From contig CAITPF010000459.1 of NCBI GenBank assembly GCA_903894155.1, forward strand, positions 1 to 59,545: a DNA stretch of 59,545 bases, written 5' to 3'. The notes under the pieces are model-generated. The model saw only the letters and a program-made list of their open reading frames with translations, did not search any database and had not been told where the DNA came from. This document shows, piece by piece, positions 8,684-59,545 of this stretch (the stretch's first letter is position 1; each line of letters starts with the position of its first letter). The stretch comes from an uncultured beta proteobacterium. GTDB lineage: Bacteria > Pseudomonadota > Gammaproteobacteria > Burkholderiales > Burkholderiaceae_B. The position numbers and the translations under genes were made by a program.

Positions 8684-8685
8684 GA

Positions 8686-10992
8686 CTATTCTTCCGGGAT
8701 GTTCAGTACATTGCGGGCAATGATCTCGCGCTGTACCTGCGAGCTTCCGCCGTAAATGGTCGCCGGAATTGCATTGAACAGAATGGGTGCCGGCGTGAGC
8801 GACGGTCGCAGCGGATCGCAGGATTCCATGATGGGTGCGGTCTCTTCGGCATATTCGTAGAGCAACAGGCAGATCTTCTGATAGGTTTCCGTGCCCCAGA
8901 TCTTGAGCAGCGATACGCTGGGCGGCAGGCTTTCCCCGCGCTTGAGCATATCGACAAAGCGCGCGTAGCCAGCGGCCTGGTCGTTGACATCGAGCAGCAG
9001 TTCGGCATAGCGGGCGCGAAATACGTCGTTTGAAAACAGGCCTTTTGACTCTGCCAGCGCATTGAGCTGGCTCAACGCGTAGCGACCCTGCTTTGGGCTG
9101 CCCAGGAAGATGCGCTCGAACCCGAGCAGCGCTTTGGCCATTGTCCAGCCTTTGTTGATTTCTCCGACGAGGTTTTCGGCGGGCACTCGGACATCTTTGA
9201 AAAACACCTCGCAGAATTCGACATGGCCACCGATATCACGGATCGGGCGGATGGTGATCCCCGGTGCGGCAAGGTCAATGAGCAGGAAGCTGATGCCAGC
9301 CTGCTTTTTTGCCTTCTTGTCCGTGCGCACCAATGCGAAACAGTGCGTGGTGTTCTGGGCCAGCGTGGTCCAGATTTTTTGCCCGTTGACGACGAAGGCA
9401 TCGCCATCGAGGATGGCCTCGGTGCTGACCGCAGCCAGATCTGATCCGGCGCCGGGCTCAGAGTAACCCTGGCACCACCGGTGCTCGGCGGTCAGGATTT
9501 TTGGCAGGAAGCGTGCCTGCTGCTCCGGTGTCCCGTGTTTGATCAACAGCGGGCCCACCATGATCGTGCCCATGTCCAGGGTACGGGCCACGCCATGCCC
9601 CTCCTGCTCTTCGACGAACGCGATGAGCTTTTCGGGCACCAGGCCCATGCCCCCGAACTGACTCGGCCAGTTCGGCGCGAGCCAGCCCTGGCGCGAAAGC
9701 ACTCCCGTCCAGTCGCGCACCTCATCCCAGTAGAGTCGTCGCTGAATGTTGCGCATCTCTTCCGGGTAATTGCGACGATAGAAGGTGCGCAGCATCCGGC
9801 GGAAGTCCTGTTCGGACATCGCATTCCAGTTTTCGTCAGCAGGGATCTCGACCTCGGCGTCGGCCGCCGTTGTGTCTCGCGCTGCCGGCTGAAGGGCAAG
9901 ATAGCGGGCACGGTGGCGGCTGGCCGAACCGAGCCAGGCCGATTCGAACATGGCACGCTTGAGGTAGAGGCCGATGTTGCATTCATCGGTGAACCCGATG
10001 GCGCCGTGGAACTGGATCGCTTCGCGGGTGACGAGCATTGCGGCGCCCGAGCAGCGAGCCTTCACGCGGCTGGCGACCAGGGCCAGTGATTCGCCGGCAG
10101 AGATCTGACGAAGGCCTTCCTCGAGGCATGCTCGCGCAATCTCGATTTGGACATAACAGTCCACGATCTTGTGCTTGAGCGCCTGAAAGCTTCCGATGGC
10201 GCGCCCAAATTGCTTGCGGATCTTCACATAGTCCAGCGTGATGGCGAACGCGCGGTCCATGGCGCCCAGCAGGTCGGCCGCGACCACGATGCGTGCGCAA
10301 TCGAGGGCGTGGTCGGTGGCTTGTCGGGCAGCGTCTCCCTCGGCCAGGAGATGGTTCTGGTCAATCACCACGTGGTCGAAACGAAGCTCGGCGAGGACGC
10401 TTCCATCGACGCTGGGCCTATCCTGGCGTGACACCCCGGCTAGCCCCGCTGCAACCCAGACCAGCAGCGGTGCGCCGTCTTCGCGGCGTGCAAGGACCAG
10501 CCATCCATCGCAGTCGAGCGCGGGCGTGACAAAGACCTTCGACCCGGTGAGCTCCAGGGCATCTCCGTTGCGGGTCGCGAGCGTTTCGATCGTGTCGCAA
10601 GCGAGCTGCCCCTCCCGCTCCTGCCAGGCGAGCCCGGCAAGCAGCTCGCCCGCCATCAATGCGTCGAGCAGGCGGGTTCTCAGCGGAGTTGCCGGACAGT
10701 CGGCGAGCGCGACAGCCATCATCGTGCTGGCGGTGATATAGGGCTCCGGCAGCAGCGATGCGCCGGCTTCGCGCGCGATCGAGACAAGTTCATTTAACCC
10801 AAGGCCCAACCCGTCGTCCTCCTCGCCGACCAGAACGGAAAACCATCCCGCCTCGGCGATCTGCCGCCAGATCGCGCGATCGACTGCGCCTGGCCGATCC
10901 CGCAGTGCGCGGGTCCTGGTTTCATTATTCAGGCGCTCAAGCAGGTCTTTCGCGCTGTCGCCAAAGGCGTCGTTGTTCTGTGCTTCGCTCAT
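8686..10992 (-). CDS. Fused two-domain acyl-CoA dehydrogenase
   Basis: A 768-residue protein, twice the normal acyl-CoA dehydrogenase length. The first half (about 1-375) has a degenerate N-terminal dehydrogenase domain and a recognisable C-terminal helical domain (KIRKQFGRAIGSFQALKH, FHGAIGFTDE). The second half (about 400-768) has the full set, including the FAD/substrate motif YSEPGAGSDLA, the WTTLAQ region and the C-terminal YGGSSQVQREIIARN. The first half lacks the EPGAGSD-type motif. This resembles heteromeric dehydrogenases (for example FadE26/FadE27) collapsed into one chain, as in mycobacterial FadE34. It is the first gene of the leftward operon. An ATG at 10992 is given; GTG at 11022 is in frame. 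The substrate is likely a bulky acyl-CoA, which is inference. Confidence 0.9.
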   Translation of the reverse strand: MSEAQNNDAFGDSAKDLLERLNNETRTRALRDRPGAVDRAIWRQIAEAGWFSVLVGEEDDGLGLGLNELVSIAREAGASLLPEPYITASTMMAVALADCPATPLRTRLLDALMAGELLAGLAWQEREGQLACDTIETLATRNGDALELTGSKVFVTPALDCDGWLVLARREDGAPLLVWVAAGLAGVSRQDRPSVDGSVLAELRFDHVVIDQNHLLAEGDAARQATDHALDCARIVVAADLLGAMDRAFAITLDYVKIRKQFGRAIGSFQALKHKIVDCYVQIEIARACLEEGLRQISAGESLALVASRVKARCSGAAMLVTREAIQFHGAIGFTDECNIGLYLKRAMFESAWLGSASRHRARYLALQPAARDTTAADAEVEIPADENWNAMSEQDFRRMLRTFYRRNYPEEMRNIQRRLYWDEVRDWTGVLSRQGWLAPNWPSQFGGMGLVPEKLIAFVEEQEGHGVARTLDMGTIMVGPLLIKHGTPEQQARFLPKILTAEHRWCQGYSEPGAGSDLAAVSTEAILDGDAFVVNGQKIWTTLAQNTTHCFALVRTDKKAKKQAGISFLLIDLAAPGITIRPIRDIGGHVEFCEVFFKDVRVPAENLVGEINKGWTMAKALLGFERIFLGSPKQGRYALSQLNALAESKGLFSNDVFRARYAELLLDVNDQAAGYARFVDMLKRGESLPPSVSLLKIWGTETYQKICLLLYEYAEETAPIMESCDPLRPSLTPAPILFNAIPATIYGGSSQVQREIIARNVLNIPEE

Positions 10993-48073: not shown

Positions 48074-49603
48074 CTAGCGGGTGCTTTGCATGGCCGCGTT
48101 TCTTCCTGCCACGCGGCCCGAGACGAACGCCCAGCCGAGATGGTGGCCGTGGCCTTCCAGCAATTGACCGCCCTGGCCGTTCGATCCTGCGGCATAGAGC
48201 CCCGGGATGATCGAGCCATCGGGGCGAAGCACCTCGAGCCGGGTCGATACGCGCAGGCCGCCGTTGGTGAAGACGACGTACGCCTTGGCGGGGCCCAGGG
48301 AGAAAAATGGTGCGCGTGTTAGTTGAAGCGAGGCCGTCCGGGGGTCGGAGGCGAGTTGTGCGTTGTGCGTCGCGACCGACGCGACGAAGCGCCCGGGATC
48401 CATGCCGAGTCGTCGTGCGAGTTCCTCAAGCGTCGGCGCCGTGAAATAGATATCGCCGCGCGTGCGACGGTAGTCGTCCAGGTAGGCGTAGGCAACGCCC
48501 GGCGCAGTCGATATGAAATGCGGCCATTGCCGGAACTGCGTCGCGATGCGCTGATCCATGACGATGTAGCCCAGGCCGCCGGGTGCACGGGCCGCGGCCA
48601 GGTGCGGATTGACGCGCGCGCCCTCAATCAAGCCACCGTCTCGATCGACCAGCGCAGAGCCTTCGCGAAACAAGCCTGCATCGGGCGCGAGGGTGGTTGT
48701 CAGGAACTTCATCATCACCGGGCGCAACAGCGCGGGCGCGAGATTCTCGTAACCCCATCGCATCAGGCGCGTCACGATGCGCCATGCGGGCAACCGTGCC
48801 AGCAGCCCCGCGCGTGCCGGGGGCACGAACCGCAGGAACGGGCCGCGCACATAGTCGCCATTGAGTACCTCTCCACCCGCTTCCAGCCCGAGGCGAATGC
48901 CCTCGCCGGTGGCGAGCGGGTTGACCGGATCGGCCATGGCCGCCTCGGGTGACGCGAACCGCGTTTTCAGCTCCTTGCTGGCGCTGTAGTCACCGCCCGC
49001 CAGAACGATGCCGCCGCGCGCGAGCCACGTCTGCACGCCCGCAACGCCGCTGGTGCGCACGCCGGTCGCACGATCCTGATCCAGGATAAGAGCATCGGCG
49101 CGCGTGTCCGTCAGAATCCTGACGCCCTGTTTGCGGCAAAGTTTTCCAAGACGGTAGGCGAACGCGCGCGAGTTGGGCAGCACGTTGTGCATGCGGGGCC
49201 GGCGATGGGGCGGCTCGGGCATGGGGCCAACGAAATCGATGCCGGCCGATAGCAGCCACGCGAACATGTCGGGTGATCCTTCGGCCAGAATGCGTCCAAG
49301 CTCGGGGTTGTCGGGATGGGGATGTGGCGCCGAGAATTTTTGAATGTCTTCCCAGTGATCCTGCGGGTTGTCGAGGATCCCCGCGCGAAACTGGTGCGGC
49401 GTGGCCGTGGCCGACACCGACCCGACGGACCAACTCGTGCTGCCGCCGGGTTCGCGATCTTTTTCAAGCAACACGACCGATCGCCCACAGGTCGCTGCCA
49501 TGCTGGCCGCAGCCAGGCCAGCGGCGCCCCCACCGATCACGATCACGTCGACGGTCTGCGCCTGGGCATCGGGAGGCCCGGCGTGTCCCTCCGTGTTGCC
49601 CAT
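48074..49603 (-). CDS. FAD-binding dehydrogenase, fumarate reductase/3-ketosteroid-dehydrogenase-like
   Basis: A 509-residue flavoprotein. The FAD fold begins VDVIVIGGGAAGLAAASMA (about 18-36) and VLLEKDREPGGSTSWSVGS; the C-terminus has YVVFTNGGLRVSTR and GLYAAGSNGQGGQLLEGHGHH. It resembles soluble fumarate-reductase-type and ketosteroid-type dehydrogenases that introduce or reduce an alpha,beta double bond. It is the last gene of a leftward operon with Bug, PcaC-like protein, a second FAD dehydrogenase and a small membrane protein, starting 5 nt after the Bug stop. The substrate is unknown. Confidence 0.87.
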   Translation of the reverse strand: MGNTEGHAGPPDAQAQTVDVIVIGGGAAGLAAASMAATCGRSVVLLEKDREPGGSTSWSVGSVSATATPHQFRAGILDNPQDHWEDIQKFSAPHPHPDNPELGRILAEGSPDMFAWLLSAGIDFVGPMPEPPHRRPRMHNVLPNSRAFAYRLGKLCRKQGVRILTDTRADALILDQDRATGVRTSGVAGVQTWLARGGIVLAGGDYSASKELKTRFASPEAAMADPVNPLATGEGIRLGLEAGGEVLNGDYVRGPFLRFVPPARAGLLARLPAWRIVTRLMRWGYENLAPALLRPVMMKFLTTTLAPDAGLFREGSALVDRDGGLIEGARVNPHLAAARAPGGLGYIVMDQRIATQFRQWPHFISTAPGVAYAYLDDYRRTRGDIYFTAPTLEELARRLGMDPGRFVASVATHNAQLASDPRTASLQLTRAPFFSLGPAKAYVVFTNGGLRVSTRLEVLRPDGSIIPGLYAAGSNGQGGQLLEGHGHHLGWAFVSGRVAGRNAAMQSTR

Positions 49604-49608
49604 GACAG

Positions 49609-50592
49609 CTATTCGACCTTGACGTTGGCTTTTCGCACCACATCGGCCCAGAGTTTGGTTTGCGTCTTGAGGAACTCCCCAAACTCTTCTGGCGTATCGC
49701 CGACCGGCTCGACCCCCTCGGCGATCAGCCTGGCCTTCATTGCCGGTGTGCTGATGACCTTGCGGACGGTTTGCTGGAGCTTTTGCCGGATCGCAAGCGG
49801 CGTGCCGGCGGGCGCCATCATGGCGTACCAGTTCGTGACGTCATAGCCGGGCAGTGCCTCGCTCATCGACGGTACGTCCGGCATCAGGGGGGAGCGTGGA
49901 TTGTTCAGGACCGCCAGCGCGCGCAGTTGACCGTTGCGCACGTAGGGCAAGCCTTGCACCACACTGTCGAAATCCGCCGCCACCTGCGCACCGAGCAGCG
50001 CGGCGTACGCCGGGCCGCTGCCCTTGAACGGGATGTGCATCATGTTGGCGCCGCTCGCAGCAATGAACAGCTCTCCCGCCAGGTGCGGCCCACCGCCCGT
50101 GCCGCTCGACGAATAGGGGACCGGTGCCGGCTGCGCCTTGGTATACGCGATGAACTCCTGAACAGTCTTGGCCGGTATGGACGGATGGATGATCAGCATG
50201 AGGGGAACTGACACGACGTTGGTCACGGGTGCCAGGTTCTTCTCGACGCTAAAAGGCATGTTGGGGTAGATCGCCGGGTTGATCGCGAAGTTGCCCATCG
50301 TGCTCATGACGACGGTGTAGCCGTCGGGTGGCGCCTTGGCGACGAAGTCGGCGCCGACGATGCCGTTGGCACCCGCCTTGTTTTCAACGATGACGGATTG
50401 CCCGAGTTCGCGCGACATCTCGTTGGCGACGATGCGGGCCACGATGTCCGTGCCGCCTCCCGCAGGGAAAGGCACGATCAGTCGGATGGGCCTGGACGGG
50501 TAGGTCTGGGCAAGCGCGTCGGTCGCCGCGACCAGGCAAATCGACGTGAGCGCGATGCGCGCAAGCTGACGCCAGCAGTGAGTGATTGCCAT
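49609..50592 (-). CDS. Bug family solute receptor (10 of 11)
   Basis: A 327-residue Bug receptor with signal peptide ending LVAATDALAQTYPSRP. Landmarks: IRLIVPFPAGGGTDIVAR, VIVENKAGANG, PDGYTVVM, YSSSGTGGGPHLAGELF and IPFKGSGPAY. The ATG at 50592 is preceded by GGAGGAGAATC; the frame is open further upstream, but that would precede the signal peptide. It lies between the PcaC-like gene and the FAD dehydrogenase. Confidence 0.93.
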   Translation of the reverse strand: MAITHCWRQLARIALTSICLVAATDALAQTYPSRPIRLIVPFPAGGGTDIVARIVANEMSRELGQSVIVENKAGANGIVGADFVAKAPPDGYTVVMSTMGNFAINPAIYPNMPFSVEKNLAPVTNVVSVPLMLIIHPSIPAKTVQEFIAYTKAQPAPVPYSSSGTGGGPHLAGELFIAASGANMMHIPFKGSGPAYAALLGAQVAADFDSVVQGLPYVRNGQLRALAVLNNPRSPLMPDVPSMSEALPGYDVTNWYAMMAPAGTPLAIRQKLQQTVRKVISTPAMKARLIAEGVEPVGDTPEEFGEFLKTQTKLWADVVRKANVKVE

Positions 50593-50710
50593 GAGAGATT
50601 CTCCTCCGGATACTGCGTGCGACCGGGAGCCCGCCGTGCAACAACGGGCTCGAGGTCTGTCGTGGTCCTGCCCTGGGGCCGCAGTCACACGGCGCCTATG
50701 TTGCAGCCAC

Positions 50711-51190
50711 CTACTTTGCGGGGGCCGTCTTTGCCGGTGCCTTCTTTGCGGAAACCTTCTTTGCGGAAGCCTTCTTCCTGGGCGCTTCCAGTTCGGTCAG
50801 CAGCTTCGGGGCGCGGCCGATCTCCGCCAGCGTCTTCTTGGCTTCGGCAAATGCGTTGTTGCCAGCTGGCACGCCGCAATAGCAGGCGGCATGGAAAATG
50901 ATTTCCTTGATGTCGTTTTCATCAAGACCATTGTTGAACGCGGCAACCACGTGCAGGTTGAACTCCTCCCAGCGACCCAGCGCGATCATGAGTGCAAGCG
51001 TCATGTACGAGCGGATCTCGCGCTTGAGGCCGGGGCGAGTCCAGACTTCACCCCAGGCGAACTGGGTGATGTGTGCCTGCCATTCCTCATCAAACGTGGT
51101 GCGCGCGGCGGTGGCCTTCTTGACCCATTTGTCGCCGAGAACGGCGCGGCGTACTTTCATGCCGGCTGCGTAGCGCTTGTCGTCTTTCAT
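50711..51190 (-). CDS. Carboxymuconolactone-decarboxylase family protein (PcaC-like) with a Lys/Ala repeat tail
   Basis: A 159-residue helical protein close to 4-carboxymuconolactone decarboxylase: YAAGMKVRRAVLGDKWV, FAWGEVWTRPGLKREIRS, then HVVAAFNNGLDENDIKEIIFHAACYCGVPAG. PcaC decarboxylates 4-carboxymuconolactone in the protocatechuate pathway, but the family also serves other lyase or peroxidase roles. After about residue 135 it gains a basic tail of repeated A-S/P-A-K-K units, unlike ordinary PcaC (about 125-135 residues). AAGGAGCAG precedes the ATG. The gene is in the middle of the FAD dehydrogenase/Bug operon; no other protocatechuate genes are here. Confidence 0.85.
   Translation of the reverse strand: MKDDKRYAAGMKVRRAVLGDKWVKKATAARTTFDEEWQAHITQFAWGEVWTRPGLKREIRSYMTLALMIALGRWEEFNLHVVAAFNNGLDENDIKEIIFHAACYCGVPAGNNAFAEAKKTLAEIGRAPKLLTELEAPRKKASAKKVSAKKAPAKTAPAK
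50724..50783 (-). repeat. 15-bp tandem repeat encoding the basic tail
   Basis: Four adjacent 15-bp units (50724, 50739, 50754, 50769) resemble GCCTTCTTTGCGGAA on the top strand. On the coding strand they give the five-residue units ASAKK, VSAKK and APAKT at the C-terminus of the PcaC-like protein. Copy-number change would stay in frame. Confidence 0.75.
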
Positions 51191-51256: not shown

Positions 51257-52696
51257 CTAAGGGATTTCCTCGGCCATCGCCTGGGCGGCGACATGTTCTG
51301 CCGCACGCAGGCCAGTGACCCCGCATTTCACGAGACCGCCAACATAGCCGGTGCGCGGCCCGCCCTCAAGCCCGCCGGTGCAGGCGCCAGTGGCGTAGAG
51401 GCCTGGTATCGGGCGGCCGGTTTCGTCAAGCGCGCGCGCGTGCTCGTCGATGCGGATGCCGCCCATCGTGTAGGTAATGCCCGCGACAACGGGCAAAGCA
51501 TGGAAGGGTGCCTGCCGGATCGGCCAGGGCTTGTAACGATCCGTTGAGCGGGGCGGCGAGCGTTGCCCGGACGACTCACGCTCGAGTGATTCGTTGTGGT
51601 CGGCGACTTCAGCGGTGAGGGCGTCCGCAGGCAAGCCCGCCCTGGCTGCGAGCTCGGCAATCGAGTGTGCGCTGTGCAGTGTGGCGCCGCCGCGCACGAG
51701 GTAGGGATTCGCGGACAAGGCGCGCGCGCAGCCGGGGCCTTGCCAGATCGCGTCGTCGAAGATGGCCACGCATGCCCCCGGGTCTTGCTGGCGCGCAATC
51801 GCGTTGGCCATGTCGACGCCGCCGCGACCTTCGTCGGTAAAGCGTCGCGCGTCTGGTCCGACCAGGATGCCGCTGCGCGCGAGCTCGTCGGCCCAGGGAT
51901 AGGGCCAGAGATTTTCGTTGGTGAGGGCGTCGCGTGACATCACGTGGCCGTAGAACTGGTGCAACCCGGTGACGGCGGCGCCGATCTCGCGCGCCAGACG
52001 CATGCCGTCCCCGGTGCTTGCCCGCGCGTTGCGCTGGCAAAGCAAATCGGGTCGGGGTGAAACGTGTTCCGCAAGCGCCGCGGGGTTTGCCTGGAACCCC
52101 CCGTCTGCGATGACCACGGCACGTGCGTCGATGAAGAACGCCTCCCCGGTTTGGTCGGTTCCACGTAATCCGACGCAGCAACCGTCGCGCTCGGTCAGTT
52201 CATGCACGGCATAGCCACGCTTGACGGCGCCGCTCTTGCGATTGAGCTCTGCCTCGAGCGTGCGCAACATCACGTCACCGCCGCGTCCCTCCCATTGCCT
52301 GCCGAACTGTGGCAGCGCCGGCGGCGCAAGCGTGTAGGCCTGATAGGGCTCCGCGCCCGAGCAGATGAAGCGGATGCCCGCATCCTGCAGCCAGCGGATG
52401 AGTCGCATGGCGTCGTCGGATATGGCGCGCGCAAGCCCCGGATGGGCGGTGCCGTCGGTCGCTGCGTCGATCCGCTCGGCCAGTGTCTGCGCGGGATCGT
52501 CGATCCGGTTAAGGGCAACGTGAAAAATGCCCCCCGTCAGTCGGGAGTTGCAGACATAGCGATCTTCGGGCAAGCGCTCGAATACACGGACGATGAGCCC
52601 GAGTTGCGCGGCGCGCAATGCAGTGACCAATCCGGCCAGACCGCCCCCCATGACCGCGAGATCGCAAAAAAAACGTCTTGCCGGGGCGTTGGCCAT
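51257..52696 (-). CDS. FAD-dependent dehydrogenase, fumarate-reductase flavoprotein-like
   Basis: A 479-residue flavoprotein: CDLAVMGGGLAGLVTALRA (FAD Rossmann), VRVFERLPEDRY, GGFQANPAALAEH, and the C-terminal YTMGGIRIDEHAR ... GLYATGACTGG region. It is about as related to the dehydrogenase at 48074 as to the TcuA-like one, so the three serve different substrates. It starts 4 nt after a small two-TM protein, which may anchor it to the membrane or link it to quinone, as the Cob/TcuB-type partners do in other systems; this is inference. AT-rich operator-like repeats lie upstream of the pair. Confidence 0.87.
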   Translation of the reverse strand: MANAPARRFFCDLAVMGGGLAGLVTALRAAQLGLIVRVFERLPEDRYVCNSRLTGGIFHVALNRIDDPAQTLAERIDAATDGTAHPGLARAISDDAMRLIRWLQDAGIRFICSGAEPYQAYTLAPPALPQFGRQWEGRGGDVMLRTLEAELNRKSGAVKRGYAVHELTERDGCCVGLRGTDQTGEAFFIDARAVVIADGGFQANPAALAEHVSPRPDLLCQRNARASTGDGMRLAREIGAAVTGLHQFYGHVMSRDALTNENLWPYPWADELARSGILVGPDARRFTDEGRGGVDMANAIARQQDPGACVAIFDDAIWQGPGCARALSANPYLVRGGATLHSAHSIAELAARAGLPADALTAEVADHNESLERESSGQRSPPRSTDRYKPWPIRQAPFHALPVVAGITYTMGGIRIDEHARALDETGRPIPGLYATGACTGGLEGGPRTGYVGGLVKCGVTGLRAAEHVAAQAMAEEIP

Positions 52697-52699
52697 GGA

Positions 52700-52930
52700 T
52701 CAGCGCGGCAGCAGTGTTTCGGCCACCAGGTCGACGACTTCAACCGCGACGCGCAGCACGACAAACAGCGCCAGACTCAGCACGATGCCCGCGACGGCCC
52801 AGGGCACGCTGGCTTCGCGCCAGGCGAACCAGCCGCACGACAGCAGGGCGATGCCGGCGATGATCCACGGCACCAGGACACCATGGCGCACGACCAACCG
52901 GATGGCGATGAATCGGTCTGGGTTTTTCAC
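52700..52930 (-). CDS. Small two-TM membrane protein
   Basis: A 76-residue protein with two hydrophobic segments (about 15-35 and 42-65), a basic N-terminus (NPDRFIAIRLVVRH) and an acidic-then-basic C-terminus (VEVVDLVAETLLPR). No family is recognised. The start is a GTG at 52930; no ATG is available in frame. Its stop is 4 nt before the FAD dehydrogenase ATG, so it is the first gene of that operon. A membrane anchor or electron-transfer partner for the dehydrogenase is the natural guess. The short length lowers certainty, but hydrophobicity, spacing and position support a real gene. Confidence 0.7.
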   Translation of the reverse strand: MKNPDRFIAIRLVVRHGVLVPWIIAGIALLSCGWFAWREASVPWAVAGIVLSLALFVVLRVAVEVVDLVAETLLPR

Positions 52931-52934
52931 GATA

Positions 52935-52968
52935 ATGAAATGAAATTTAGCGCAATCAAAATGAAATT
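52935..52968. promoter_or_regulatory. TGAAAT repeat site C (upstream of the membrane protein/FAD dehydrogenase operon)
   Basis: ATGAAAT occurs at 52935-52941, with ATGAAATT at 52940-52947 and again at 52961-52968, a spacing of 21 bp between the two octamers. The same element occurs in three other sites of this window (53058, 58003, 58151). It lies at or just upstream of the GTG start of the leftward operon, a position expected for a repressor. Confidence 0.5.
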
Positions 52969-53057
52969 GTGGTTTCGTTCCTGCTGGGCTCTTTCATAAA
53001 TGGCGCAGTCAATCATACATAAACCAACAAAATTATCTACTTGTTTTTCTTGCCTAA

Positions 53058-53090
53058 ATATGAAATTCATATCAGCATACTGAAATCATT
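53058..53090. promoter_or_regulatory. TGAAAT repeat site D with palindrome (upstream of Bug 11)
   Basis: ATATGAA-A-TTCATAT (53058-53072) is a perfect 7-bp-arm palindrome. A second half-site TGAAATCATT starts at 53081, 20 bp after TGAAATTCAT at 53061. The arrangement (two half-sites two helical turns apart) equals that of sites A and B near 58000. It lies 41 nt before the Bug start at 53132. Confidence 0.5.
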
Positions 53091-53131
53091 GCGGCGGGGA
53101 CCACTCCGCCCGTTCAGGCTTGGGAGGATCC

Positions 53132-54175
53132 ATGAAGAGACACGTTGTCCGTTTGCTTTGCGCGGCGGTGCGTCCGTTGCGAGTCCTGCTTTCCCGCCCC
53201 CATTCGGGGCGCGCGGTGGCACTCGCGATGCTGCTGTCGATGACGGGCGCGCAGGCCCTGGCACAGGGGGCCTCGCAAGCCTATCCGAGTCGCCCCATCC
53301 GGATGATCGTGACGTTCGCCCCCGGTAGCGCGACAGATACGGTCGCCCGTATCTATGGCCAGAAGATGGCCGAAATCCTGGGCCAACCCGTGATTGTCGA
53401 AAACAGGCCCGGCGCGGTCGGCACGATCGGCGCCGACGCGGTGGCGAAGGCCGAACCCGACGGCTATACCCTGCTTGTGGGCACCAACACCACCAACGCC
53501 GCGGTGCTGTCGCTGCTCAAGCACGTGCCTTACGATCCGCGGCGCGACTTCACGCCGATTACGTTTCTTGGCGTGCTTCCGCAGGTGCTCATCGTCAACA
53601 AGGATCTCCCGTTCACGAACGTGGTCGACTTCGTGGCCTACGCGCGCGCCAATCCCGACAAGCTGAGCTACGGATGGACGAACTCCGTCTCTCGCGTGTC
53701 GGCCGAATTGCTTGCGCAGATGGCGGACGTCAGGTTTTTCAATGTCCCGTACAAGTCCGGTTCGACGTCGATTGCGGACCTCATCAGCGGGCAGATCAAC
53801 TTCACGATCATTGACATGATCGTGGCTCTGCCGCAGATTCAGTCGGGCACGGTGCGCGCGCTGGCAGTGACGACGCCGCAGCGGATTACCCAGTTGCCGG
53901 AGGTGCCCAGCATCGCGGAGGCGCTGAAGCTACCCGGTTACGAGATGATGGGCATCTTCGCACTCTTCGGGCCTGCGAACATGCCGCGCGATATCGTCGC
54001 AAAGCTCAATGCCGCCGTCATCCGCGCGAGCGAGGATCCTGAATTGCGCAGCCGCTTCGACAGGATGTCGCTTAACGTGCAGACCACCACACCCGAGCAA
54101 TTGCGCCAGCGGTTCGATCGCGAAATTGCCGTGTGGACCGAGATCGCCGGCAAGGCGGGCATCAAGCCCGAGTAG
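53132..54175 (+). CDS. Bug family solute receptor (11 of 11), divergent second loop
   Basis: A 347-residue Bug receptor with a long signal region ending GAQALAQGASQAYPSRP. Landmarks: IRMIVTFAPGSATDTVAR, VIVENRPGAVG, PDGYTLL and VPYKSGSTSI. The second ligand loop, GSxGxGSxxHL in most Bugs, reads GWTNSVSRVSAELL, so the ligand contact differs. The ATG at 53132 follows GGGAGGATCC. It is divergent from the membrane protein/FAD dehydrogenase operon across a shared regulatory region, and converges with the EthD-like gene. Confidence 0.91.
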   Translation: MKRHVVRLLCAAVRPLRVLLSRPHSGRAVALAMLLSMTGAQALAQGASQAYPSRPIRMIVTFAPGSATDTVARIYGQKMAEILGQPVIVENRPGAVGTIGADAVAKAEPDGYTLLVGTNTTNAAVLSLLKHVPYDPRRDFTPITFLGVLPQVLIVNKDLPFTNVVDFVAYARANPDKLSYGWTNSVSRVSAELLAQMADVRFFNVPYKSGSTSIADLISGQINFTIIDMIVALPQIQSGTVRALAVTTPQRITQLPEVPSIAEALKLPGYEMMGIFALFGPANMPRDIVAKLNAAVIRASEDPELRSRFDRMSLNVQTTTPEQLRQRFDREIAVWTEIAGKAGIKPE

Positions 54176-54181
54176 CGCGCC

Positions 54182-54826
54182 TCAGGCGAGTATGCGGTGC
54201 AACACGCGGTACTCGCCGCGGAACCACCGTTCGATGGCGAGCCGGTCCCGCCAGGGCGTGGCGCGAGCCGCGTCGCGCTCGGGCGACGTGAGTGCGGCAA
54301 TCCCGGCCAGGTAGTGCAGCGCGAGGTGTGTGAAGCCTGCCGGATGCGGCGACGCGATCCGGAAGCGTCGACACGCGAGCCAATCCGGACACCCCAGCAG
54401 GATGCCGAGGTGTTCCTCGTCGTACCAGCGGTTGAACTCTTCTTCGCGCGCTTCAGGCACCGCGAAGAAAACGGGGTATGCGATGGGCGCGCTTCGCGCC
54501 GTGGCATGGATGTCGATTGCCTCGGGTCTTGACTGCCAGCCGATGGATCGCCCGATGAACTGTTCCGTGCGGGCGACGCCCGCGCCGAGTTCGCCGGAGG
54601 TTTCCACCATGCTTGAGTCGTTCTCGACGCTATCAATTTCGAGAATCGCGGTGAGGCTGGCGCACGAGGCGCTGGCGTAGACGCGGCACGCCAGCGGGGC
54701 AAATTCGCGGCGCAATGCGGGTAGATGCCGCGCAGCGTACCAAACGTCGAAGTTCACGCCATGCCCGACGCCGGCGATGGCGGTGTCGAACAGGATCGTA
54801 TCGCTGCAAAGGCCGGGTGGCGTCAT
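54182..54826 (-). CDS. EthD-like / dimeric alpha-beta-barrel protein with two repeats
   Basis: A 214-residue protein of unassigned function. Two internally similar segments, NFDVWYAARHLPALRR (about 25-40) and EFNRWYDEEHLGILL (about 125-140), carry the F-x-x-W-Y-x-x-x-HL motif of EthD/antibiotic-biosynthesis-monooxygenase-like ferredoxin folds, so it is probably a tandem two-barrel protein. Such proteins assist oxidative or isomerisation steps in aromatic and sterol catabolism. It is the last gene of the leftward operon with the dienoyl-CoA-reductase-like and acyl-CoA dehydrogenase genes. The role is inferred from context only. Confidence 0.72.
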   Translation of the reverse strand: MTPPGLCSDTILFDTAIAGVGHGVNFDVWYAARHLPALRREFAPLACRVYASASCASLTAILEIDSVENDSSMVETSGELGAGVARTEQFIGRSIGWQSRPEAIDIHATARSAPIAYPVFFAVPEAREEEFNRWYDEEHLGILLGCPDWLACRRFRIASPHPAGFTHLALHYLAGIAALTSPERDAARATPWRDRLAIERWFRGEYRVLHRILA

Positions 54827-54868
54827 GGCTCGGAAGTCGGATGGTCGGTCGTGGTCGGCGCGCTCGCC

Positions 54869-56749
54869 TCAGGTCGCAAGCGCAAGGTCTGCGGCTTCGT
54901 AGACGGTGCGCGTGAGAACGTTAGGCTCGTAGGCATCGTCGATCCAGTGGTCGACACGCGCGGGCGAGAACGGGATCGTCCACTGTGCATCGGGCGTGTC
55001 GATCGCGGCGGCGGCCCCGATTTCTCCGATCACCAGTGTGCCCTCGCACTGCGCGATCTCGCCCTTGAAGGATGTTTCGACGGTGACCCCAAGTTGCTTG
55101 TAGGCCTTCAGGGTTGATTCGCGATAGCCGGGATGCCCGTCGAGCGCAATGAATCGGGTCGGGCAGCGCAGCGTGACGCGCTTGCCGTGTGAGGCCAGCA
55201 GGAGTGCAGCCTCAGCCGTGGCGAGATCCTGGCCGATCAGGGTGACCTCGTCGCCCTGGATGCGCCCCGGGGCCGCCAGGACTTCGTAGCTTGACAGTGC
55301 GTCGCGCCCGCCCGTCAGGGCATTTGCCGCGAACGGTGTATAGCGGCGCACCGCCCACACGAGGTCGCAGTCGGCCGGTTCGCTGGTGTCCAGCACGAAG
55401 CGCACACCGGCGCGCTTTGCACGCCCGACGAGCGCGGCCGTCGAATCGGCGAACTCCTCAAGGCCCGGCACGCGGGCGCGCCAGTCCTGGATGCCCCCCA
55501 GGCCGTTCGACGCGTCGTACACCGTGACACGGTGACCGCGACTTGCCGCAGCCCAGGCCGCGGTCAGGCAAGCCCAGCCCGAGCCGACGATCGCGATGCG
55601 CAGGGGCTGCGCTGCAGGCCGGAATTCGAACATCGCTTCGCGTCCGACCGCAGGGTTGACCGGGCAGATCGTTTCCGGGCGGGCCGAGCGGCCAAGGCAG
55701 ATGTTGCAGCTATTGCACCAGATGATGTCGTCGCTGCGACCGTTGGCAATCTTGTTGGGCAACTCGGGGTCGGCAAACGACGCCCGTCCGAAGAGCGGGA
55801 TGTCGACCTGGTCGCGTTCGAGCGCCTGCTCGGCAACTTCGGCGCGCTTGATGCGGCCCACGCCCATGACGGGCAGCCGCGTATGGCGTCGCACCTGGTC
55901 GGCCATGTCGAGCCACTGGCCTTCCGGGTCGCCGGTGATCATCGACAGGCGGTTGAAGGATTCGTAGACGCCAACCGACAGGGAGATTGCGTCGATCCCC
56001 GCCGCTTCGAGTCGCTTGACGATCTCTATCGCTTCGGGAATGGCGATCCCCTCCGGCACGAATTCCTGGGCGCTGATGCGCACGCAGAGCGCGAAATCCG
56101 GCGGGCACGCGGCGCGGATGCCGCGCACGATGTTGAGCAGAAACCGCATGCGGTTCTCGAGCGGGCCGCCATAGATATCGGTGCGCTTGTTTGAATAGCA
56201 GGAGAGGAATTCGGCGATCAGGTAGCCGTGCGCGCCATGCAGTTCCACGCCGTCGAATCCGCTCTTGTGCAGGCGGCACGCCGCATCGATATAGAACTGT
56301 TCGAATTGGCGCACGCTGTCGAGGGTGAGTTCGACAGGCATTTCGCGATTGAGCGGGCAGGGGATGGGCGAGGGCGCGACCAGCGGCAGGCCCGTGGTTG
56401 CTGTCTTGGTCTGGCGTCCCGCGTGACTGATCTGGCCCACGACTTTCGAGCCGGCGGCGTGGATCGACGCGGCCAGACGTTTGAGGCCGGGCAGCATGCT
56501 GTCGTCATGCCCCATCAGCATGCGGGGCATCACGCGACCGCTCGGATGCACGCCGATATTCTCGGTGATGACCAGCGCGAAGCCGCCGCGCGCGCGCGCC
56601 ACCAGGTAATCATGCACCGAGTCGGAGACGGATCCGTCCGCGTTGGCGAAATTGGTGGTCATCGGCGCCACCACGAACCGGTTGGGCAGGGTGATCGGGC
56701 CCAGGGTTACTGGTGTAAACAACTTGGGGAACTGCGCGTTTCCTTGCAT
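54869..56749 (-). CDS. NADH:flavin oxidoreductase/2,4-dienoyl-CoA-reductase family protein (BaiCD/FadH-like) with a Fe-S site
   Basis: A 626-residue three-part enzyme. The N-terminal old-yellow-enzyme TIM barrel (about 1-340) has GVELHGAHGYLIAEFLS and the NRFVVAPMT loop. The 4Fe-4S ligands are C345, C348, C351 and C362 (Cx2Cx2Cx10C, as in trimethylamine dehydrogenase). The C-terminal FAD/NAD domain starts IAIVGSGWACLTAA. In that last motif the third glycine of GxGxxG is Cys (C394), an unusual change. The family reduces dienoyl- or enoyl-CoA (FadH, BaiCD/BaiH) with flavins. ATG 56749 is given; TTG 56755 is possible. It starts 14 nt after the acyl-CoA dehydrogenase stop and acts in the same operon. 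Confidence 0.89.
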   Translation of the reverse strand: MQGNAQFPKLFTPVTLGPITLPNRFVVAPMTTNFANADGSVSDSVHDYLVARARGGFALVITENIGVHPSGRVMPRMLMGHDDSMLPGLKRLAASIHAAGSKVVGQISHAGRQTKTATTGLPLVAPSPIPCPLNREMPVELTLDSVRQFEQFYIDAACRLHKSGFDGVELHGAHGYLIAEFLSCYSNKRTDIYGGPLENRMRFLLNIVRGIRAACPPDFALCVRISAQEFVPEGIAIPEAIEIVKRLEAAGIDAISLSVGVYESFNRLSMITGDPEGQWLDMADQVRRHTRLPVMGVGRIKRAEVAEQALERDQVDIPLFGRASFADPELPNKIANGRSDDIIWCNSCNICLGRSARPETICPVNPAVGREAMFEFRPAAQPLRIAIVGSGWACLTAAWAAASRGHRVTVYDASNGLGGIQDWRARVPGLEEFADSTAALVGRAKRAGVRFVLDTSEPADCDLVWAVRRYTPFAANALTGGRDALSSYEVLAAPGRIQGDEVTLIGQDLATAEAALLLASHGKRVTLRCPTRFIALDGHPGYRESTLKAYKQLGVTVETSFKGEIAQCEGTLVIGEIGAAAAIDTPDAQWTIPFSPARVDHWIDDAYEPNVLTRTVYEAADLALAT

Positions 56750-56762
56750 GTGCAAACAATCC

Positions 56763-57956
56763 TCAGCAATGCATGCCCATCTGGCGGGCGATGATTCTCA
56801 ATTGAATGTCGGGGGTGCCCTCGCCGATATACGACTCGGGGCCATCGCGAAAGAGGCGGGCGATTCCGCTTTCTTCCATGTATCCGTAGCCGCCGTGCAG
56901 GGAAACCGCGTGCTGGGTGGCAAAGATGACCGCATCGGCCGTCATGAACTTCGCCATCGACGCGGCCTGGCTACAGGGCCGGCCGGCCATGTAATCGCGC
57001 GCAGCGCTGTACACCATCATTCGGGCAGCCTCGATGCGCGAGGCCATCTCCGCGACACGGAAGCCGACGGCCTGGAATTCGCCGATCGGGCGACCGAACG
57101 CCTGGCGCTCACGGGCATATTGAAGGGTCTTTTCCATCGCAACCTGGGCGATGCCCAGACCGCGTGTGGCCTGGATGATGCGCCCTGACGTCAGCGTGTC
57201 CTTCAGTTGCGCAAGGCCGGATCCGATTTTTCCGAGCAGGGCGTTCTCCGGCACGCGAACCCCGTCCAGGCTGATCAGGGCCGTCGAAGACGAGTGGTTG
57301 CCAAGTTTGTCCAGCGCGCGCGCTTCGAGGCCGACGCTGTCGCGCTCGACCAGGAAGAGCGACAGCGCATCCGGTTTGCGTTCGGGCGACGTACGTGCGG
57401 CAAGCACGTAGTAGTCGGCGATTGTTCCGTTGGTGATGTAGACCTTGCTGCCGTCGAGTACCCATCCCTGCGCATCACGCGTCGCTCGCGACCGAATGCC
57501 CTGGACATCGCTGCCCGCGTCCGGTTCGGTCAGGGCGAATGCCCCGATGCGCTCGGCCCGCAGTGCTGGCGCGAGATAGCGTGCGCGCTGCTCGTCGGTG
57601 CCAAGTTCGAGGATGGGGCGGATCGCCAGGTGCTGGTGCGCGAAAACGCCTGCCGATACGCCGGCCGGGATTCGGGTCAGTTCTTCGTAGTAGACGCAGG
57701 CCGACAGGATGTCGCCCCCGCCGCCGCCGAGCGCCTCCGGGTAATCCGGTGCGAGGTAACCTGCATCGCGCAGCAGCGTGTAGACCTCGGCCGGGAAGAC
57801 GCGTTCGCGCTCCCCGCGCGCCGCGGGCTCGGCCAGGCGCGACAGGACAAAACGCCGGAAGTGCGTGCGGAATTCGATATGCGTCGAATCCAGCAGGGTA
57901 TCGGCCGAGAACCGCACTTGCTGGCCCGAGGCATCCATGTTGTCGTTGGCGGGCAT
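56763..57956 (-). CDS. Acyl-CoA dehydrogenase
   Basis: A 397-residue single-domain acyl-CoA dehydrogenase: LTEPDAGSDVQGI (FAD and substrate contact), VYITNGTIADYY, RQAFGRPIGEFQAV, HGGYGYMEE and the C-terminal YIGEGTPDIQLRIIAR with a catalytic-region Glu. It introduces an alpha,beta double bond into an acyl-CoA with electron transfer to ETF. It is the first gene of a leftward operon with the OYE-type reductase and EthD-like protein, and is divergent from a DECR-like SDR across a region with repeated operator-like elements. Initial dehydrogenation of an activated acid is the likely role. Confidence 0.92.
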   Translation of the reverse strand: MPANDNMDASGQQVRFSADTLLDSTHIEFRTHFRRFVLSRLAEPAARGERERVFPAEVYTLLRDAGYLAPDYPEALGGGGGDILSACVYYEELTRIPAGVSAGVFAHQHLAIRPILELGTDEQRARYLAPALRAERIGAFALTEPDAGSDVQGIRSRATRDAQGWVLDGSKVYITNGTIADYYVLAARTSPERKPDALSLFLVERDSVGLEARALDKLGNHSSSTALISLDGVRVPENALLGKIGSGLAQLKDTLTSGRIIQATRGLGIAQVAMEKTLQYARERQAFGRPIGEFQAVGFRVAEMASRIEAARMMVYSAARDYMAGRPCSQAASMAKFMTADAVIFATQHAVSLHGGYGYMEESGIARLFRDGPESYIGEGTPDIQLRIIARQMGMHC

Positions 57957-58002
57957 GGCTGGGTTCGGTTGAATTGAGTCCGCTGCAATAATAGCAGTGT
58001 TA

Positions 58003-58031
58003 TTTTCATTTCGAAATTTGTAATTTCATTA
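58003..58031. promoter_or_regulatory. TGAAAT/ATTTCA repeat site A (acyl-CoA dehydrogenase side)
   Basis: A 29-bp element contains TTTCATT at 58004 and again at 58024, exactly 20 bp apart, around a central ATTTCGAAAT palindrome. It matches site B (58151-58179) at 25 of 29 positions. It lies 47 nt upstream of the acyl-CoA dehydrogenase start. Confidence 0.65.
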
Positions 58032-58150
58032 TAGAGCAGGTGATCCGCGTGCGTGTCGGCCTGAGCGGAAGCTGCCGCCGACAGCATTGCGAAAATGGAG
58101 CTTTTTTTGGCGTTACGCTTGTGTTTGACTTGACCTTCGAATCTCTCTAT

Positions 58151-58179
58151 ATTTCATTTCGGAATTTTGAATTTCATTA
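58151..58179. promoter_or_regulatory. TGAAAT/ATTTCA repeat site B (SDR side)
   Basis: A near copy of site A: TTTCATT at 58152 and 58172, 20 bp apart, separated by TCGGAATTTTGAA. It ends 17 nt before the SDR start codon, overlapping where its transcript would begin. The duplication in one divergent promoter and the related sites near 53000 mark it as the operator of a shared regulator. Confidence 0.65.
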
Positions 58180-58196
58180 AAATAGCGGAGACGGTG

Positions 58197-59009
58197 ATGC
58201 TGAGTTCTGATACCTTTGCCGGCAAGACGTTCTATGTGACTGGCGCCGGGACCGGGCTCGGGCAGCGGTTTGCGACGCGCGCGGCGGAGCTCGGCGCCAC
58301 GGTCGCCGTGGCGGGCAGGCGCGAGAGCCTTTTGCAGGAAACCGCCGACCTCATCACCCGCGCGGGGGGGCGCGCGCTGGTCTGCAAGGTCGATATCCGC
58401 AAGCCCGATGAGGTCCAGGCCAGCATTGACTCGGTCGTGGCGCAGACCGGCGGCATCGACGTGCTCATCAACAATGCGGCCGGCAACTTTGTCGCCCGTG
58501 CCGAGGAGATTTCCCCGAACGGGTGGAACGCCGTCATCAACGTGGTGCTCAACGGCACAGCGTATTGCACGCTCGCCGCCGGTCGCCACATGCTCGGGCA
58601 GGGTCGTGGCAAGGTGCTCAGCATCTCGGCCGCCTATGCCTGGTACGGCGGCCCGGGTACCGCGCACTCGGCGGCTGCCAAGGCCGGCGTGATTGCGATG
58701 TCGCAGTCGCTTGCCGTCGAGTGGGGCCCGCGCAACGTGCAGGTCAACTGCCTCTGCCCCGGCTTCGTCGATACCGAGCAATCGCGCACAGCGCTCTGGC
58801 CGACCGTGGAGGGGCAGCAACGCATCCTCTCGTCAGTCCCCGCAGGGCGCTTCGGCACGATCGACGAGACGGTCGAGGCTGGCCTCTTCATGTGTTCTCC
58901 CATGGCGGATTACATTAACGGTGAGGTGCTGGTGATCGACGGCGCCCAGTGGCTGAACAAGGGCGTTTTCGTACTGCCCGAACCCGGCCAGCGCTACCAG
59001 AAAGTATGA
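58197..59009 (+). CDS. SDR family oxidoreductase, 2,4-dienoyl-CoA-reductase (DECR)-like
   Basis: A 270-residue SDR: NAD(P)-binding TGAGTGLG (15-22), NNAAGNF (92-98) and AAAKAG with Lys162. The canonical YxxxK Tyr is replaced (HSAAAK). Tyr147 lies 15 residues before Lys162, the same Tyr-to-Lys offset as in mitochondrial 2,4-dienoyl-CoA reductase (Tyr199/Lys214), and NNAAGNF also fits that subgroup. It is therefore likely to reduce a CoA-bound dienoyl or related compound, though a different substrate is possible. GGAG precedes ATG 58197. It is followed by a CoA ligase gene, and faces the acyl-CoA dehydrogenase. Confidence 0.88.
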   Translation: MLSSDTFAGKTFYVTGAGTGLGQRFATRAAELGATVAVAGRRESLLQETADLITRAGGRALVCKVDIRKPDEVQASIDSVVAQTGGIDVLINNAAGNFVARAEEISPNGWNAVINVVLNGTAYCTLAAGRHMLGQGRGKVLSISAAYAWYGGPGTAHSAAAKAGVIAMSQSLAVEWGPRNVQVNCLCPGFVDTEQSRTALWPTVEGQQRILSSVPAGRFGTIDETVEAGLFMCSPMADYINGEVLVIDGAQWLNKGVFVLPEPGQRYQKV

Positions 59010-59109: not shown

Positions 59110-59545
59110 ATGACCGCAGCATTGAACCGCATCGATGCCCTGTTCGAGCACAACGCCAGGACGCTGCCGCGCAAAGCGCACCTCATTGACGTTTCTGGCG
59201 TGGCGCAGACCTATGAACAGACCTGGCTTCGCGCGCAGCGCCTCGCGGGCGTCATGGTGCAGGCGGGCGTGCCTCCAGGTGCGCGCGTGCTGGCCCTGAT
59301 GGGCAATTCATTCGAACTGGTCGAACTCTATGTTGCCTGTAGCCTGGCCAATGTGATCTGCGTGCCGGTCAATCTCATGAGCACCGGCCATGAGGTATCG
59401 CGCATCAAGGCGGATTGCGCGCCCGACGCGGTGGTCATCCAGAACGCATTGCTTGACCGGATCCTTCCCGATTTCGGCGCCGAGTCGTTGCGGCTGCGCA
59501 TTGTCACGGAAGGCTCGGCGCCGGGATGGGATTCATATGACGAGG
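59110..59545 (+). CDS. AMP-forming acyl-CoA synthetase, partial (C-terminus beyond the window)
   Basis: About 145 residues of the N-terminal domain of an adenylate-forming CoA ligase: LNRIDALFEHNARTLPRKAHL, TYEQTWLRAQRLAGVMVQAGV, RVLALMGNSFELVELYVACSLANVICVPVN. The catalytic motifs lie beyond the right edge. The ATG at 59110 aligns with normal family starts. It follows the DECR-like SDR by 100 bp on the same strand, so the ligase probably activates the acid that the surrounding acyl-CoA dehydrogenase and reductases process. Confidence 0.88.
   Translation, partial: MTAALNRIDALFEHNARTLPRKAHLIDVSGVAQTYEQTWLRAQRLAGVMVQAGVPPGARVLALMGNSFELVELYVACSLANVICVPVNLMSTGHEVSRIKADCAPDAVVIQNALLDRILPDFGAESLRLRIVTEGSAPGWDSYDE

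Follow-up and report, generated by a model that had tools for sequence, protein, structure and literature searches.

The stretch of DNA considered here (the window) is a whole contig of 59,545 nucleotides (C459, GenBank CAITPF010000459.1) from an uncultured beta proteobacterium of the Burkholderiaceae_B (assembly GCA_903894155.1, here G000), so that sequence to the right of position 59545 cannot be read in this assembly. A catabolic gene block near its right end is transcribed from two divergent promoter regions, and we focus on a repeated TTTCATT element found in both. A sequence-only reading of the window had described two 29-bp elements between 57956 and 58197, which is the promoter region of an acyl-CoA dehydrogenase gene (ACAD) and an SDR oxidoreductase gene; they match at 25 of 29 positions, each holding a pair of TTTCATT units exactly 20 bp apart, as well as related elements at 52930-53132 with a spacing of 20-21 bp, one of them including a 15-bp palindrome. 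All of these were found again. The first two elements agree at 24 of 27 positions, or at 25 of 29 when the next two bases are included (counted by hand), while the others comprise one pair spaced at 21 bp and a weaker 20-bp-spaced pair that the palindrome overlaps. We consider it quite likely, from comparison of sequences, that these elements are the operators of one catabolic regulon controlled by the IclR family. The elements and their promoters are given below, with conservation in two genomes of the same genus (G248 and G264) and scores as positions matched over the two units.

58004-58030, forward strand: putative operator 1, TTTCATTTCGAAATTTGTAATTTCATT, TTTCATT twice, 20 bp apart, in the leftward ACAD promoter and overlapping its TATAAT; kept in G248.
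58152-58178, forward strand: putative operator 2, TTTCATTTCGGAATTTTGAATTTCATT, TTTCATT twice, 20 bp apart, in the rightward SDR promoter and overlapping the -10 box TATATT; kept in G248 and G264.
52939-52966, reverse strand: putative operator 3, TTTCATT-N14-TTTCATT, spacing 21 bp, located 8 bp before the GTG start codon of TM76; kept in G264 (L054:1816).
53059-53085, reverse strand: weak putative operator 4, TTTCAGT..TTTCATA, 12/14, spacing 20 bp, upstream of BugA.
53058-53072, no strand: 15-bp palindrome ATATGAAATTCATAT, overlapped by weak operator 4.
58125-58153, forward strand: sigma70-like SDR promoter, TTGACT-N17-TATATT; same boxes in G248 and G264.
58028-58033, reverse strand: TATAAT, likely -10 box of the ACAD operon, with no good -35.

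The genes of the block, identified by domain scan unless stated otherwise, are as follows.

48074-49603, reverse strand: FAD509, FAD_binding_2 flavoprotein.
49609-50688, reverse strand: BugB, Bug/TctC solute-binding protein.
50711-51190, reverse strand: carboxymuconolactone decarboxylase-like (CMD) protein.
51257-52696, reverse strand: FAD479, FAD_binding_2 flavoprotein.
52700-52930, reverse strand: TM76, short hydrophobic protein with a GTG start, first gene of the leftward operon (called by eye).
53132-54175, forward strand: BugA, TctC/Bug solute-binding protein (scanned from 53120).
54182-54826, reverse strand: 214-aa protein without a Pfam match at E 0.001; its G264 ortholog is 55% identical.
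54869-56755, reverse strand: OYE-type FMN oxidoreductase with NAD(P)-binding domain.
56763-57956, reverse strand: ACAD, acyl-CoA dehydrogenase.
58197-59009, forward strand: SDR oxidoreductase, ATG start.
59110-59545, forward strand: acyl-CoA ligase, 5' part, cut by the contig end; 81% to a G248 gene, with an AMP-binding domain in the G264 ortholog.

The repeats in the two divergent promoters are not due to chance. TTTCAT-N13-16-TTTCAT occurs three times in the window against an expectation of 0.02. A whole-genome scan, which the sequence-only reading had proposed, covered the 5,146,619 bases (502 contigs) of G000 and found TTTCATT-N12-14-TTTCATT three times, always in these two promoters, with none for the reversed control; the 27-bp consensus at ≤3 mismatches recovered the two 58-kb elements and nothing else. 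The looser pattern TTTCATTTN10AATTTCATT at ≤3 mismatches gave 20 matches, compared with one for the control. These fall increasingly inside the proposed regulon as mismatches are reduced: 7/20 at ≤3, 4/6 at ≤2 and 3/3 at ≤1, the last being the two window elements without a mismatch and a site on another contig, C194, the sole match with one. The other 13 of the 20 lie outside; nine are within called reading frames and four are near gene starts (L118, L132, L133, L134), at L118 and L133 abutting the start of the called frame. These four were not taken as regulon members because each has 2-3 mismatches.

The elements are also conserved. In G248 both 58-kb elements are kept between genes that are 94% (ACAD) and 95% (SDR) identical, while the intervening sequence has diverged. 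In G264, a 20-bp-spaced site is found in the SDR promoter and a 21-bp-spaced site in the flavoprotein/BugA promoter. A metagenome-assembled genome (MAG) of Ramlibacter, whose ACAD is 73% identical, has 20-bp-spaced units scoring 13/14 and 12/14 in the corresponding promoter region.

The architecture of the sites was compared over 27 promoter regions, leaving aside G042 (no close AtuA gene) and the AtuA gene of G264 (inside an operon). At ≥13/14, 21 of the 27 have a site with spacing 20, and any other spacing between 10 and 41 is represented in 0-5. In 25 regions the sites beat the region's own 300 first-order shuffles (p≤0.023), the exceptions being G204 (0.39) and G187 (0.98). Across the 22 sites that were typed, neither unit departs from TT.C, A is found at position 19 in all and at position 20 in 21, and TTYCRTT is the reading of both units in 19. 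This set excludes the 21-bp-spaced sites, those of BugA and Ramlibacter and a number of identical repeats; one sequence, shared by G000 and G248, is entered twice.

Seen from the gene, the repeat points in different directions at different promoters, but its placement over the -10 box is constant. The best sigma70-like -10 box overlaps the operator or lies ≤3 bp from it in 17/19 AtuA promoters outside the genus and in both own-type AtuA promoters (an overlap at L148 rested on a 7/14 'operator' and is not counted). The same holds by coordinates for all three SDR promoters, with an overlap in the window at 58148-58153 vs 58152-58178; for G000 and G248 the overlap was judged from the coordinates, the script having picked the equally scoring site on the ACAD side.

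Which regulator could recognize such sites? The IclR1 profile described below finds six IclR-like matches in this genome, all of them outside the window, and among the 20 proteins scanned in all (10 + 10, a part of the genes) the sole other regulator recognized in the window was a sigma54-dependent activator with a GAF domain at 2148-4094, at its far left end. The sequence-only reading had placed the regulator outside the block and had suggested the TetR, MarR, GntR or IclR family. Both suggestions agree with the candidate that emerged: contig C194 encodes two IclR proteins in tandem, and the motif is present at their own operon as well as at the divergent AtuA operon. IclR1 (C194:5567-6304, reverse strand) scores 353 bits with the IclR1 profile and is adjoined by IclR2 (C194:4774-5517, reverse strand), as it is in G248, G264 and the Ramlibacter MAG. 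In the MAG, the contig bearing the pair has a length of 53,124, equal to that of the contig with the ACAD promoter units. The top profile matches are G264 (481 bits), G000 (353), G248 (348) and the Ramlibacter MAG (284), followed by a match of 120 bits. The own-genome pair lies downstream of an ECH gene in the same operon, divergent from an operon encoding AtuA and acyl-CoA carboxylase. The ECH-AtuA intergenic region holds two sites (13/14 and 12/14), both repeated in G248. In G264, the genes for IclR1 (285 aa) and IclR2 (270 aa) overlap by 8 bp and stand downstream of the OYE gene within the block itself, in one 20-kb stretch with the SDR and TM76/BugA sites; toward ECH, this genome also has a site of 13/14.

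The own-genome proteins were assigned by profile and BLAST (59% and 56% to the G264 proteins), and the Pfam scan was made on members from other genomes: PF09339 (HTH_IclR) and PF01614 (IclR_C) were above cutoff in all four (G264 IclR1 and IclR2, G008 IclR1, G041 IclR2). IclR1 and IclR2 form distinct groups in a FastTree tree (support 1.000). In eight lineage representatives the PTVSR segment of the recognition helix is invariant in IclR1 (8/8) and variable in IclR2, and mean pairwise identity of the helix-turn-helix (HTH) is 0.65 for IclR1 vs 0.48 for IclR2. The effector domains rank in the same order (0.50 vs 0.40), so the HTH gap is partly one of overall rate. The invariant PTVSR and the better-conserved HTH favor IclR1 as the DNA reader, and the window operators would most likely be bound by IclR1, co-encoded with IclR2.

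Co-occurrence was followed in 268 genomes of the family, calling IclR1 at >340 bits and the motif at ≤1 mismatch. IclR1 is present in 23 genomes (the next score is 251 bits), and in all 24 when Ramlibacter is counted, IclR2 adjoins or overlaps IclR1 in the same orientation. The motif occurs in 45 genomes with 55 matches, and is found in 17 of the 23 IclR1 genomes vs 28 of the 245 others (Fisher p=1.8e-10). All 23 matches in IclR1 genomes are upstream of pathway genes, namely AtuA, SDR, ACAD, ECH or, in G190:C12, a short gene. This last site (L213:3996; G190:C12:169695) precedes a frame of 148 aa, after which comes an ACAD3 ortholog (79%), and is likely an extra regulon member in that genome. 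Of the 32 matches in IclR1-negative genomes, 18 lie within called frames and 14 between them, frames in fetched loci having been called by a simple script from GC at codon positions and not by a trained gene finder. None of the 32 has a regulon-like gene (≥50% identity) in the stretch read, mostly about 4 kb on each side (shorter on one side for G218). Within the window's own genus (32 genomes), IclR1 is limited to G000, G248 and G264, and the motif is also found in G238, G240, G250 and G257, where three matches are within frames and the fourth has no regulon-like gene nearby.

A further comparison was made with AtuA. Of the 23 IclR1 genomes, 22 (all but G042) encode an orthologue at 69-100% identity, and so does G102. 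This control comprised 30 loci, one per genome, of the 138 genomes matching at E 1e-60. A site of ≥12/14 is found upstream of AtuA in 19/22 IclR1 genomes vs 0/8 of the IclR1-less homologues among the loci listed (p=2.8e-5), or p=2.2e-4 when limited to the six IclR1-less homologues of 58-70% identity. The misses are G187 (7/14), G204 (11/14) and G264 (8/14), the latter scored as such with AtuA inside its SDR operon. The AtuA orthologue of G102 (C23:1164770-1166131, 70%) lacks the operator, which may have changed in this case; a more distant IclR gene (240 bits) is located some 5.5 kb away. A separate observation concerns another genus, in which TTTCATTTCGAACCGACATATTTCATT is identical in G046, G047 and G052 (L057, L185, L189); these genomes have no IclR1 above 340 bits and no regulon-like gene nearby.

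The sites resemble published IclR operators in several respects. An IclR family comparative study describes a TYCRY-type box (TYCRY/RYGRA) belonging to its group 1 consensus, and tandem palindromic sites spaced 18-22 nt, mainly 19-21 nt in 94 orthologous groups, to which tetramers bind with their dimers on the same DNA face (PMC8222616). Likewise, the units here are 20-21 bp apart, TTYCRTT contains TYCRY, and the sites are close upstream of the start codon. PcaU, PobR and HmgR sites are described there as having an external direct half-site (PMC8222616). No GTNCG-type palindrome was seen at the present promoters, and a PcaU-like three-box structure, looked for by eye, was set aside. The G264 proteins reached 106.0 (IclR1) and 103.0 bits (IclR2) with TIGR02431, far below its curated cutoff of 284.75, and are therefore not filed as PcaR/PcaU/PobR. 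The system also differs from PcaU, PobR and PcaR in its target genes and in having two paralogues instead of one.

From these properties a mechanism can be proposed. An IclR-type regulator, probably a tetramer, would bind two TTYCRTT units which, at 20-21 bp or two helical turns, would both lie on the same DNA face. Once bound, it would cover the -10 box and the start region and block RNA polymerase, until the presence of a pathway acid or acyl-CoA lifted the block. The position of the operator over the -10 box suggests repression, and SDR and most AtuA promoters are probably regulated in this manner. With the ECH-IclR operon and the divergent AtuA operon both carrying the motif, the circuit is probably autoregulated. 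The idea of the sequence-only reading that one off-window regulator serves four transcripts stands as to the shared motif and the off-block regulator and needs revision as to scope: the predicted regulon has about six transcripts in this genome, adding the ECH-IclR and AtuA operons of C194, and its BugA limb is weaker. More tentatively, with rather less than even confidence, we suggest that IclR1 and IclR2 are an old paralogue pair forming one heteromeric switch on a direct-repeat operator, in which IclR1 would read the DNA and IclR2 would add a second effector input.

Several observations weigh against the IclR interpretation of the operators. Published IclR tandem sites are palindromic (PMC8222616), whereas the window units are direct repeats and at most pseudo-palindromic by eye; unit symmetry was compared by eye only, and a perfect AATGAAATTTCATT was noticed at the ECH promoter of G264. 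At 12/14, the spacing of 20 (24 regions) is accompanied by 15 (21 regions), 25 (18) and 14 (17), with a peak also at 26, extra peaks which arise because of AT-rich repeats within the element. No convincing sigma70 promoter was found at the site for ACAD, ECH, TM76 or BugA. On the BugA side, conservation of the 12/14 site in G264 is not clear: the best site there reaches 12/14 with a different spacing, and the region is 76% AT, with a mean of 11.1 for its shuffles. For these reasons BugA is a weakly supported member of the regulon. Six of the 23 IclR1 genomes have no site at ≤1 mismatch (G042, G075, G187, G188, G196, G204), four of them having weaker 11-12/14 sites before AtuA, while G187 has no site ≥12/14 in the 20 kb fetched and G042 no close AtuA ortholog. 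Conversely, 28 genomes without IclR1 carry a match somewhere (32 matches, vs 13 for the reversed control). The genomes are moreover related, so that the counts are not independent events and are inflated by relatedness. Finally, the IclR pair of G000 and G248 is on a different MAG contig than the window locus, G000 is listed with 5.57% contamination, and the assignment of IclR1 to the operators is a prediction from sequence comparison.

The operators might instead bind another regulator, with the IclR pair a mere neighbor of the pathway. In G190 and G195, a LysR-like gene (judged by eye) adjoins the site; prpR and prpB of G123 flank one motif match; and an unseen transcription factor could also be imagined. 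The LysR-like gene was set aside, as it stands beside the AtuA site in two of the 24 IclR1 genomes; at 91-100% identity it is found in G190 and G195 only, and the other matches in 32 loci are different LysR-like genes of 28-30%. The G123 match (L009:9790-9816), TTTCATT-N13-TTTCATT between the sigma54 activator gene prpR and prpB, is possibly a PrpR-type site and not the IclR operator, and this genome has no IclR1. As the 20-bp tandem spacing and the TYCRY unit also fit the IclR family as described in its comparative study (PMC8222616), we regard another regulator, judged from the genes and loci covered and not from an exhaustive scan for transcription factors, as quite unlikely. Another explanation would be that ATGAAA starts and the AT-rich nature of promoters produce the repeats as a side effect. 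For such genomes the promoter regions are indeed mostly AT-rich, the single TTTCAT is over-represented in the window (35 vs 19.5 expected), and looser matches occur at other spacings. Genome-wide rarity, the region shuffles, the 13/14 spacing peak, conservation across genera and the absence of pathway genes beside any of the 32 background matches speak against it, and make it very improbable indeed.

Control by an IclR pair could also mean activation instead of repression. PcaU and PobR reportedly act as activators, and TIGR02431 (PcaR/PcaU/PobR) is, though below cutoff, the best NCBIfam match of both G264 proteins. Furthermore, no good -35 is seen at the site in the ACAD, ECH and TM76 promoters, a common trait of activated promoters. 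At SDR and most AtuA promoters, however, the site overlaps the -10 box and start region, a position from which a bound protein would be expected to obstruct RNA polymerase, and these promoters score 10-11 of 12 unaided; activation thus appears unlikely and repression preferable. AtuR-like control by a TetR protein was considered once AtuA genes appeared. The likeness lies in a regulated operon with an AtuA gene, and the atu operon is also said to encode an acyl-CoA carboxylase. AtuR of Pseudomonas represses the acyclic terpene (atu) operon starting with the AtuA gene (PMC9973270). AtuR is a TetR-family protein with the box AGCAAGCGCTTGG, in contrast to the IclR-family linked regulator and TTTCATT direct repeats found here. 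This candidate was rejected, as the linked regulators are IclR proteins and AGCAAGCGCTTGG is not at the promoters: its best scores are 7-8/13 in three own-genome promoter regions, with one match at ≤2 mismatches elsewhere in the window.

Some features of the surrounding genes can be added. Besides BugA and BugB, nine further Bug/TctC-like genes are found in the 59.5-kb contig, at window positions 4138-38810. G264 holds a stretch resembling TM76 (read by eye), and its block includes two extra FAD479-like flavoproteins (L054:4741-6198 and 7212-8717; 40% and 49%), indicating that the flavoprotein was duplicated there.

In the one paper collection searched, no report was found on paired or tandem IclR regulators, on IclR with AtuA, or on IclR with geranyl-CoA carboxylase; the heterotetramer in a paper retrieved for IclR and heterotetramer is a dehydrogenase (PMC12543098). 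The two-paralogue twist on IclR control is possibly new. Two IclR paralogues that always occur together are an uncommon arrangement, enough so to make hetero-oligomeric control worth considering. The SDR-ligase, ACAD-OYE, flavoprotein, AtuA-carboxylase and ECH-IclR operons are predicted to serve a single pathway. A pattern first noticed by eye in promoters has led to a regulator and an operator that can be tested together, in a catabolic pathway recurring among several related genera.

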